A DNA stretch of 5,748 bases from Acidobacteriaceae bacterium (GTDB lineage: Bacteria > Acidobacteriota > Terriglobia > Terriglobales > SbA1), in NCBI GenBank assembly GCA_003136335.1, contig PLEA01000374.1, positions 1-5,748 on the forward strand. Reading direction: 5' to 3'. The notes beneath the pieces are model-generated. The model ran no database searches. It worked only from the letters and a program-made list of their open reading frames with translations, and was not told where the DNA came from. The position numbers were made by a program, and so were the translations under genes. Positions 2,447 to 3,604 of this stretch are shown one piece after another. Every line of letters starts with the position of its first letter. Position 1 is the first letter of the stretch.

Positions 2447-2518
2447 GAGATTCTCCACTTTAGATTTCACTGCGTCCGTGACAGCGATGGCGCCGGCGCG
2501 GAATGCTTACGGGGAGGA

Positions 2519-2549
2519 ATTATGCCACAGGAGCTGGCGCAGAGGTAAA
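2519..2549 (-). promoter_or_regulatory. Candidate promoter of the Gfo/Idh/MocA gene
   Basis: On the minus strand CATAAT (2524-2519) matches the -10 consensus at 5 of 6 bases. It is preceded by TGG, giving an extended -10. A weak -35, TTTACC (2549-2544), matches 4 of 6 bases at a long 19-base spacing. Transcription would start near 2512, leaving a leader of roughly 65 bases before the ATG at 2446. Position and strand fit the gene; the -35 is the weak part. Confidence 0.4.
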
Positions 2550-2588
2550 TCGATTTTGTTGAGGGAGTCTTAGTGGCTAACGCGGAAC

Positions 2589-2634
2589 AGCAGGTCTCTC
2601 CACTCCGAAGGGCAAGCTCGGGTCGAGATGACAG
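2589..2634 (+). repeat. Dispersed intergenic repeat, degenerate copy B
   Basis: This is a second, shortened copy of the repeat at 962-1025, in the same orientation. Bases 2589-2607 match 962-980 at 17 of 19 positions. Bases 2607-2634 match 997-1025 with two substitutions and one missing base. Missing are 16 bases corresponding to 981-996, the left hairpin arm and loop, so this copy can no longer form the 12-bp stem. The two copies flank the oxidoreductase gene as direct repeats. Confidence 0.65.
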
Positions 2635-2696
2635 TTCTTCGAAGGGTGCACTGACGGGGAAAGTTCAGAGGATAAGAAAAAACGGGTGGGAGAAAA

Positions 2697-2724
2697 TTGA
2701 AAGGGCCGTGACATTGGTTATGCT
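2697..2724 (+). promoter_or_regulatory. Sigma70-like promoter without an obvious gene
   Basis: TTGAAA (2697-2702, 5 of 6 to the -35 consensus) and TATGCT (2719-2724, 4 of 6 to the -10 consensus) are 16 bases apart. Transcription would begin near 2731 and run toward rnhA. The first ATG downstream (2766) opens a 103-codon frame that does not look like a protein. The promoter may serve an untranslated RNA or a long rnhA leader, or be a chance match. Confidence 0.4.
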
Positions 2725-2734
2725 CTAGCCGCCA

Positions 2735-2750
2735 GCTCCTGCGAGGGAGC
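2735..2750 (+). other. Small hairpin with GNRA-type loop
   Basis: GCTCCT (2735-2740) pairs with GGGAGC (2745-2750), including one G-T wobble, around a GCGA loop. GCGA fits the GNRA tetraloop class that stabilises RNA hairpins. It lies just after the predicted transcription start of the 2697-2724 promoter and would be the 5' hairpin of that transcript. It is short, so chance is not excluded. Confidence 0.3.
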
Positions 2751-2863
2751 CAACAACGTGGAGACATGTACCGTCACGACCCCTTGATGCGATCACTGCT
2801 TTCGCAGTTCCAAACCCCAACTACCCCTCGCAGAGCCGTCGGTTTTTTCAGGTCTGGTCGCCG

Positions 2864-2879
2864 GGCGGGTCGCCCCGCC
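2864..2879. other. GC-rich 6-bp hairpin in the long spacer
   Basis: GGCGGG (2864-2869) pairs with CCCGCC (2874-2879) around a TCGC loop. No T-tract follows, so it is not a typical intrinsic terminator. A second weak stem, CAGTC/GACTG, lies at 2892-2908. Apart from these, 2751-3012 shows no gene or recognised site. Confidence 0.3.
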
Positions 2880-3013
2880 TTGCTGATCACTCAGTCTAGT
2901 TTGGACTGGCTCATTTTACTGTGCCAGCCCTTTCGACCGTCGACGTCACCAACCTTAGCAGAGCACTGCGAAAAGTCAACGCAAACTTTTGGTGCAATAG
3001 CTCTTTGCAAAGC

Positions 3014-3092
3014 TGTGCATAACCGAAAATGCAAACGGTTGCAAGGCGGGAGGTTATCCACAGGCGATTTTAATTGATCCGCTTTTTGCACA
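3014..3092. promoter_or_regulatory. DnaA-box cluster, candidate oriC or DnaA-regulated region
   Basis: Three exact matches to the DnaA-box consensus TTWTNCACA lie within 79 bases. They are TTATGCACA on the minus strand (3022-3014), TTATCCACA on the plus strand (3054-3062, identical to the strongest E. coli boxes) and TTTTGCACA on the plus strand (3084-3092). A relatively AT-rich run follows the central box (about 3064-3094). The cluster is intergenic and 111 bases before rnhA. Clusters of this density mark replication origins, but also DnaA-controlled promoters or DnaA-titrating sites. No dnaA, dnaN, rpmH or parAB is visible to support an origin. The boxes are plain in the sequence; their role is inferred. 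Confidence 0.55.
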
Positions 3093-3150
3093 TCGGGTGC
3101 ACAGTAACGGGGCGTGCTGCAAAACGCTGAAAGCGAACCCAAATATCATC

Positions 3151-3179
3151 TTGACGATGGATCGAGATGAGCGCATCTT
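3151..3179 (+). promoter_or_regulatory. Weak candidate promoter of rnhA
   Basis: TTGACG (3151-3156) matches the -35 consensus at 5 of 6 bases. At 17 bases spacing lies CATCTT (3174-3179), a poor -10. Transcription would start near 3186, giving a leader of about 17 bases before the ATG at 3203. This fits the chosen rnhA start better than the ATG at 3167. Confidence 0.22.
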
Positions 3180-3202
3180 GCAGAGAGCGACGGAAAGAGC
3201 CG

Positions 3203-3604
3203 ATGTCAGAACTGGTGGCTTACGTGGACGGGGGTTGCCTGGGGAATCCGGGGCCCTCGGGCATTGGAGTCGTGATCAATGGCTGCGCCAATGGACCGGT
3301 GCGCATCGCGAAGTGGATTGGCCACCAGGACAACAACGTGGCCGAATATGCCGCTCTAATGGAAGCTCTGCAGTACGCCTTGTCGCTCAAGGCCCAAAAG
3401 CTGCATGTGTATTCCGACTCGGAAGTGATGGTTAGACAGATGACGGGGCAGTACGTCTGCCGCAGCCCGCGGCTCTACTCTTTGCACTGGACGTGCCGCA
3501 AACTGGCTCGCACGCTGAAATTTTCCATCTCGTATGTGCCGCGGGAAAATAATGTTGAAGCGAACGGGCTGGCGCAGTCGGCGCTGCGCCGGCGGCCTGT
3601 GTAG
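3203..3604 (+). CDS. rnhA: Ribonuclease HI, short form, with Asp-to-Asn at the fourth catalytic position
   Basis: This 133-residue protein is an RNase H1-fold endonuclease that cuts RNA in RNA-DNA hybrids such as primers and R-loops. The catalytic order is clear: D9 in YVDGG followed by GNPGP, E48 in NNVAEY, and D72 in YSDSE. The fourth acidic residue would fall in VPRENNVEAN, where related proteins read EAD; here residue 121 is Asn (AAC, 3563-3565). E. coli RNase HI tolerates Asn at the matching Asp134, so activity is plausible. The protein is shorter than the 155-residue E. coli enzyme and lacks its basic handle, as in many short bacterial and archaeal versions. The start at 3203 is preferred because GGAAAGAG (3192-3199) precedes it at suitable spacing. 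The in-frame ATG at 3167 would add 12 residues without a good site. The TAG stop (3602-3604) lies inside a palindrome. Confidence 0.88.
   Translation: MSELVAYVDGGCLGNPGPSGIGVVINGCANGPVRIAKWIGHQDNNVAEYAALMEALQYALSLKAQKLHVYSDSEVMVRQMTGQYVCRSPRLYSLHWTCRKLARTLKFSISYVPRENNVEANGLAQSALRRRPV

Follow-up and report, generated by a model that had tools for sequence, protein, structure and literature searches.

Three DnaA boxes lie close together upstream of a gene encoding ribonuclease H (RNase H) in a stretch of 5,748 nucleotides from an Acidobacteriaceae bacterium (contig PLEA01000374.1), which is referred to here, at its full length, as the window. An earlier note on this DNA offered two readings of the cluster, a replication origin or a DnaA-controlled switch. 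The question of what these boxes serve was approached by comparison with related genomes. The reading favored here, to which a probability of roughly 0.64 is given, is that the boxes form a conserved DnaA operator shared by two divergent genes, the RNase H gene (here named rnhA1) and a predicted gene for a structured non-coding RNA (ncRNA). The features concerned are listed in Table 1.

Table 1. Features of the region between the ncRNA and the RNase H gene, in window coordinates
Feature	Position	Strand	Description
Structured ncRNA, about 250 nt (predicted)	2690..2945 (start 2945)	-	Alignment, covariation and fold; terminator-like 3' stem followed by a U-rich tract
Predicted ncRNA promoter	2952..2979	-	-35 TTGACT (2979-2974), spacer 16 bp, -10 TAAGGT (2957-2952)
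TTGCACC element	2991..2997	-	Just upstream of the ncRNA -35; TGCAC in 66/66 relatives
DnaA box 1, TTATGCACA	3014..3022	-	Exact match; about 70 bp upstream of the predicted ncRNA start, in the same orientation
DnaA box 2, TTATCCACA	3054..3062	+	Exact match; equals the strongest E. coli box; found in some relatives only
DnaA box 3, TTTTGCACA	3084..3092	+	Exact match; conserved core box
Tandem partner site, GGGTGCACA	3095..3103	+	11 bp after box 3, start to start; not exact in the window
Predicted RNase H promoter	3150..3179	+	-35 (C)TTGACG (3151-3156), spacer 17 bp, -10 CATCTT (3174-3179)
RNase H gene, rnhA1	3203..3604	+	Pfam RVT_3 / RNase_H

Genes of the window and the RNase H promoter

The protein genes around the boxes encode a formamidase-family protein, a Gfo/Idh/MocA oxidoreductase, RNase H and a GAF-domain protein. 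A defense-system search with the four window proteins gave no match. The product of rnhA1 matches the Pfam families RVT_3 and RNase_H above the cut-off; the NCBIfam equivalog cut-offs are not reached. The start codon was placed from the alignment and the position of the -10 element, and a start at ATG 3203 is more likely than one at ATG 3167, given the conserved -10-like element at 3174-3179. The TTGAC of the predicted -35 element is present in 65-66 of the 66 aligned relatives, and the -10 element is similarly constant (C in 64, A in 65 and T in 61 at its first three positions and T in 65 at its last). This promoter was absent from the output of a consensus promoter scan. Its -10-like hexamer (CATNNT) begins with C in 64 of the 66 relatives, which is unusual for a sigma-70 site.

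A further peculiarity concerns the protein itself. Among 120 proteins related to this RNase H in the database, 119 have a VPR stretch, and the 20 commonest variants of this stretch, which cover 114 of the 119 proteins, all contain AN. RNase HI usually has AD at that place, which we take to be the fourth catalytic position. The window protein has VEANGLA.

DnaA boxes in the window

The three exact matches to TTWTNCACA described in the earlier note are real and are the sole exact matches in the window. Their number exceeds chance, as had been claimed: shuffled sequences hold 0.17 on average, and none of 200 shuffles reaches three. When one mismatch is allowed the count becomes ordinary, with 7 sites against 4.58 expected and 39 of 200 shuffles reaching 7. 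The AT-rich run that was reported beside the boxes exists and is modest (GC 0.47 in 2940-2999 and 0.40 in 2970-3029, in intervals of 60 bp). The surrounding stretch (about 2471-3202) had been called gene-free; it has no callable protein gene, yet it holds the conserved, predicted ncRNA gene on the minus strand.

Conservation of the boxes in related genomes

The relatives are metagenome-assembled Acidobacteria, many of them labeled Candidatus Sulfotelmatobacter, in which 63 loci were found via the RNase H protein. One or more exact boxes, mostly at regular places, were found at 55 of the 63 loci within at most 600 bp upstream of the RNase H gene. Two of the 8 loci that have no exact box there comprise 65 bp of upstream DNA or less. 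The boxes do not accompany RNase H genes as such: no exact box occurs in the 600 bp upstream of the RNase H paralog in 13 of 13 genomes, and the boxes therefore mark the control region of rnhA1 and the ncRNA rather than RNase H genes generally.

The DNA between the ncRNA start and the RNase H gene was compared in a set built from the 63 loci and 30 further ones. This set gave 82 segments, and 73 after the removal of nine repeated loci (L118 and L138 among them). Loci with no match to the 5' motif of the ncRNA (L003, L041, L045, L056, L057, L058, L061, L063 and L140-L142) were left out, as was L021, the segment of which measures 754 bp; a model of the ncRNA (R1, see below) finds the RNA in L003, L021, L056, L058, L141 and L142 and a part of it in L045. 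An exact box is present in 67 of the 73 segments (105 boxes in all), with at least two in 29 and at least three in 9; L047, L049, L131, L133, L136 and L143 have none. In 200 runs with shuffled segments a box was held by 3.3 of 73 on average and by 9 at most. Before de-duplication the corresponding counts were 76, 35 and 11 of the 82 segments. Because the sequences are related, these box counts are not independent events.

Column counts were made from 66 aligned rows, unselected for a match, which omit the reversed-pair segments (L034, L036, L042, L043, L044, L130 and L132). Box 3 is the best preserved, with T in 59 rows (A in 7), T in 66, T in 55 (A in 10, C in 1), T in 66, any base, C in 66, A in 66, C in 66 and A in 65 at positions 1 to 9; a set of 68 rows, which still contained two repeats, looked alike. 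A fourth box-like site, the partner at 3095-3103, is conserved as WTNCACA at positions 3-9 (T 45 or A 17, T 63, G/C/T, C 65, A 66, C 65, A 65). In box 3 and in its partner, changes are nearly confined to positions 3 and 5, the places where a DnaA box may vary, which speaks for DnaA. Box 1 keeps part of its sequence (T4 in 54, C6 in 49, A7 in 52, C8 in 48 and A9 in 45 rows), and box 2 keeps TTA alone (63, 62 and 46 of 66). The identity of the box at 3054 with the strongest E. coli box, to which the earlier note drew attention, holds, but this box is lineage-specific and the least conserved, and the core of the cluster is the 3084/3095 pair. The earlier note had named a denser cluster elsewhere, together with a lack of conservation upstream of rnhA in relatives, as what would speak against its readings; on the second of these two points the alignment clearly shows the opposite.

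The RNase H-side boxes face the opposite way in seven segments, L034, L036 and L042-L044 among them, so the geometry of the pair is not fixed. Exact boxes lie 12 bp apart in L125, L134 and L139.

The structured ncRNA

A conserved structured ncRNA gene divergent from rnhA1 is predicted on the minus strand. In the alignment of the relatives, a block near 2886-2945 is better conserved than the boxes. The predicted promoter is likewise conserved, with TTGAC in all 66 rows and with the first and last T of the -10 element in 61 and 62 of them.

Of the 53 long sequences of the ncRNA, 49 were kept in an alignment (A1) with a mean column identity of 86%; L002, L021 and L028 were removed by the filter for N or length and L053 for a deletion. 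The fold of A1 is one structure of 78 pairs, 32 of which show compensatory changes. The loops of two hairpins have complementary sequences, UGCGAG and CUCGCA (A1 columns 121-124 with 210-213), and might form a kissing contact. With this four-pair loop-loop contact included, 97.6% of the cells of the structure are paired, and 32 pairs change on both sides; shuffles give a mean of 16.0 such pairs, and a slid structure gives no more than 12. The four loop-loop pairs are invariant in 49 of 49 sequences, and the contact is thus without support from covariation. The minus-strand fold of 2728-2935 has a z value of -5.63.

The model R1 was built from 31 of the 49 sequences of A1, picked for diversity. 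It matches the core of the ncRNA in the window (2696-2890) at E 3.2e-59, with the window being among the sequences of R1 itself. Neither in the window nor in five divergent loci does the ncRNA match a family of Rfam 15 (E <= 1), and the same scans of the window and the five loci found no RNase P, tmRNA or SRP RNA.

Several other identities and roles of the predicted RNA were considered and rejected. For 6S RNA (RF00013), the covariance model has no match in the window, and 6S RNA above the cut-off is found elsewhere in 9 of 11 relatives. A small RNA on the plus strand at 2728-2850, suggested by a promoter-like site, folds less well relative to shuffles, with a z value of -2.77 compared with -5.63 on the minus strand, to which the conserved promoter and the terminator-like end also belong. 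Pairing of the ncRNA with the start of the dnaA mRNA gave z values of -0.8 to 1.5 in ten genomes and of -2.87 in the eleventh, and is therefore not supported.

Copies and distribution of the ncRNA

Matches to R1 were found in 33 of 150 genomes of the order and in 8 of 297 genomes sampled across the phylum, all 8 being among the 33; the filters used in these searches lose weak matches. In a slightly different sample of the order, the RNase H gene is present at 65% identity or more in 30 of the 33 R1-matching genomes. Among the others, G098 has an RNase H of 48% identity beside a copy of the ncRNA, and G044 and G049 have a weaker ncRNA match and distant RNase H matches only. No box was found within 460 bp of the ncRNA homologs of G044 and G049.

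Some genomes contain up to four copies of the ncRNA. Three copies that lie beside RNase H (L191_111286, L201_29267 and L197) were left out of the comparison of copies elsewhere, and 19 remained. An exact box is located 30-110 bp upstream of the RNA start in 6 of these 19 (shuffle mean 0.3, maximum 2). When one mismatch is allowed the excess is weak (11 of 19, against a shuffle mean of 4.3 and a maximum of 10). The sequence TTGCAC is present in 13 of the 19 copies, and in several ncRNA copies TTTTCC-type boxes recur, as judged by eye, at intervals of 11-12 bp.

Tandem copies of the ncRNA were seen at the loci L191, L201 and L058, with distances of about 540 bp in G030, about 430 bp in G025 and about 250 bp in L058. 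Extra copies in L193 and L199 lie near frames that by eye resemble recombinases or transposases, and the ncRNA may spread with mobile DNA. Carriage by viruses was rejected, as 11 viral contigs match a short pattern and none of them matches R1 at E <= 0.1. Carriage by plasmids was also rejected, with no match in a plasmid collection. A different RNA, Acido-Lenti-1 (RF01687), is present at L047:8569-8615 above the gathering score.

Tandem box pairs in whole genomes

Two such boxes 11-12 bp apart were sought as a tandem pair in 18 genomes, with the reversed pattern as control, and the places were assigned from coordinates. Twenty-seven pairs were found, and the reversed pattern gave 7. Of the 27 pairs, 16 lie at the region between RNase H and the ncRNA and 2 more, both in G119, at ncRNA copies that have no RNase H; 15 of the 18 genomes are represented among these 18. 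In 8 genomes the sole tandem pair is at this locus or at ncRNA copies. The pattern search did not find the pair at the locus in G005, G076 and G142. Single boxes are far more frequent, with 115 to 233 per genome in 13 genomes against 73 to 175 for the reversed pattern.

The surroundings of eight of the nine other tandem pairs were inspected. Two are inside open frames, one is between frames and one precedes queG. A gene for a nucleotidyltransferase with a poly(A)-polymerase head is preceded by a pair in L244 (near 1960) and L245 (near 2010), and a gene for an S4/FtsJ methyltransferase, presumably TlyA-like, in L238 (near 2011) and L240 (near 2015). No further copy of the ncRNA was found at these eight places (best E 0.74).

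Possible control by DnaA

The boxes lie between two conserved promoter-like elements, the predicted promoters on the ncRNA side and on the RNase H side. The regulatory reading of the earlier note is upheld by sequence conservation and is changed in two respects, as the region would also serve the ncRNA and its core would be the pair at 3084 and 3095 instead of the box at 3054. In the proposed mechanism, DnaA would occupy the pair at 3084/3095, toward RNase H, and in the lineage of the window it would also take up boxes 1 and 2, which are nearer to the ncRNA promoter. The amount or nucleotide state of DnaA would then set the transcription of the ncRNA, of rnhA1 or of both. From sequence comparison we infer the binding of DnaA, the expression of the ncRNA, a responding promoter, activation or repression at that promoter and a link to the replication cycle.

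The DnaA of a relative contains the Bac_DnaA_C helix-turn-helix and reads GGKHHTTVLHS there, which we take to be close to the box-binding signature of DnaA. DnaA is described as working elsewhere as an activator or a repressor (PMC8203912). Besides the unfixed geometry of the pair, the segments and ncRNA homologs that lack a box, the three genomes with no tandem pair at the locus and the weak one-mismatch excess at ncRNA copies, two features count against an operator. Box 3 has G at position 5, and boxes of the TTTT type in E. coli are reported to be bound far better with C at this position (PMC5835720). The pair also precedes the predicted RNase H start site by about 80-100 bp, which is far for direct contact with the polymerase. 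A connection between DnaA and RNase H is made plausible by work on E. coli: a DnaA-dependent alternative initiation zone is reported in E. coli RNase H mutants after UV (PMC12000880).

A wider proposal is that DnaA couples the replication cycle to a trans-acting structured RNA and an enzyme that removes RNA-DNA hybrids. R-loop removal and the ncRNA could then, for instance, rise or fall together with initiation capacity, and the boxes at some extra ncRNA copies would make the ncRNA a dedicated output of the initiator. This extension of the operator reading is doubtful.

Other explanations of the boxes

The boxes could instead be a locus for titration or nucleotide exchange of DnaA, like datA or DARS of E. 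coli, with their place between promoters being incidental. Such a role would be consistent with a conserved and rare tandem cluster and with the unfixed orientation of the pair, which titration tolerates, and titration of DnaA on the E. coli chromosome has been reported (PMC12371093). It accords less well with the exact boxes at the ncRNA promoter elsewhere in the genome (the 6 of 19 copies) and with a cluster of two to four boxes only, and box 3 is of a type described as weakly bound in E. coli (PMC5835720). We regard titration as unlikely.

A different regulator with a site resembling the DnaA box could also bind here. The box motif is short, and a second invariant motif, TTGCACC by the ncRNA -35, has a fixed G where the DnaA box is free; at least one other factor may therefore act in the region. 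For the boxes themselves such a regulator is quite unlikely. The unfiltered columns of box 3 and its partner show the degeneracy of DnaA (W at position 3, any base at position 5), and boxes that follow one another at 11-12 bp, roughly one turn of the helix, agree with a DnaA array. Boxes of similar type also occur in the interval between dnaA and dnaN and, in most of 11 genomes, upstream of dnaA (at most one mismatch).

An origin of replication, either the chromosomal or a second one, is highly improbable at this locus. It would explain why DnaA boxes and an RNase H gene occur together with a moderately AT-rich stretch, and since the genomes are fragmented the distance of the locus from dnaA is not shown. 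The usual anatomy is found elsewhere, however. In a search of 13 relatives dnaA was matched in 12 and complete in 11, and all 11 of the latter have an oriC-like arrangement between dnaA and dnaN, in which a box such as TTTTCCACT is followed by a CCTACTGTTACTGCTGG-type run and then by an AT-rich stretch. The run, which we assume to be like a DnaA-trio, satisfies a strict expression in 9 of 11 genomes; G011 and G013 are one base off with the same run visible. Pfam identified dnaN in both of the loci that were checked for it. This anatomy by itself would leave an origin away from dnaA possible. No trio-like run was seen by eye beside the boxes of the locus, and dnaA and rnhA1 are on different contigs in the 11 genomes. 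Cumulative GC skew on the contigs of two relatives has no clear minimum there, but the signal is weak and patchy and counts for little in either direction. The origin reading of the earlier note is not supported, and this locus is unlikely to be the origin.

Chance clustering in GC-rich DNA, for which the near-expected one-mismatch count of the window could be cited, is negligible as an explanation in view of the shuffles for three exact boxes and of the conservation of the sites across the clade beyond that of shuffles.

Comparison with known systems

Judged by titles and the beginnings of abstracts, no paper found in the one open-access library searched deals with DnaA boxes before rnhA or with this ncRNA in Acidobacteria, and none was found to present a structured ncRNA that lies opposite an RNase H gene and is a conserved target of DnaA boxes. 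The words rnhA, RNase H, small RNA, sRNA and noncoding have no occurrence in the main text of the review PMC8203912.

Structured ncRNAs of Acidobacteria are known from Acido-1 and Acido-Lenti-1 (RF01686 and RF01687), as described in PMC2864571. Neither of them matches the ncRNA of the window in Rfam scans. The ColE1 RNA primer/RNase H system brings an RNA, RNase H and DnaA boxes together, and DARS is reported to be present in the ColE1 origin (PMC5835720). Unlike in ColE1, the RNA predicted here would be transcribed away from the boxes and end at a terminator-like stem, and it lacks a match in the plasmid collection.

CcnA of Caulobacter is described as an ncRNA whose gene has weak DnaA boxes and is linked to the replication cycle (PMC8959179). 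By its description in the same source it differs in its length of 182 nt, in its place at the origin and in its presumed activation by CtrA, whereas the ncRNA of the window is about 250 nt long and away from the oriC-like region. The E. coli loci datA and DARS resemble the present one in that each has a few DnaA boxes grouped outside oriC (PMC5835720). They differ from it in that the boxes here are located between two promoter-like elements and that some extra ncRNA copies have boxes at their promoters.

The role of DnaA as a transcription factor is already known. The promoters that it regulates, including those of dnaA (autoregulation) and mioC, are similar to the present region in having boxes in an intergenic promoter region (PMC8203912, PMC5835720), and the targets proposed here, a structured ncRNA and an RNase H gene, are different. 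If the operator reading is true, replication initiation would be tied in a concrete way to RNA control and to the removal of R-loops, and an RNA without an Rfam match would be added to a group of soil bacteria. The conserved, likely DnaA sites suggest a replication-linked genetic switch rather than a start point for copying.
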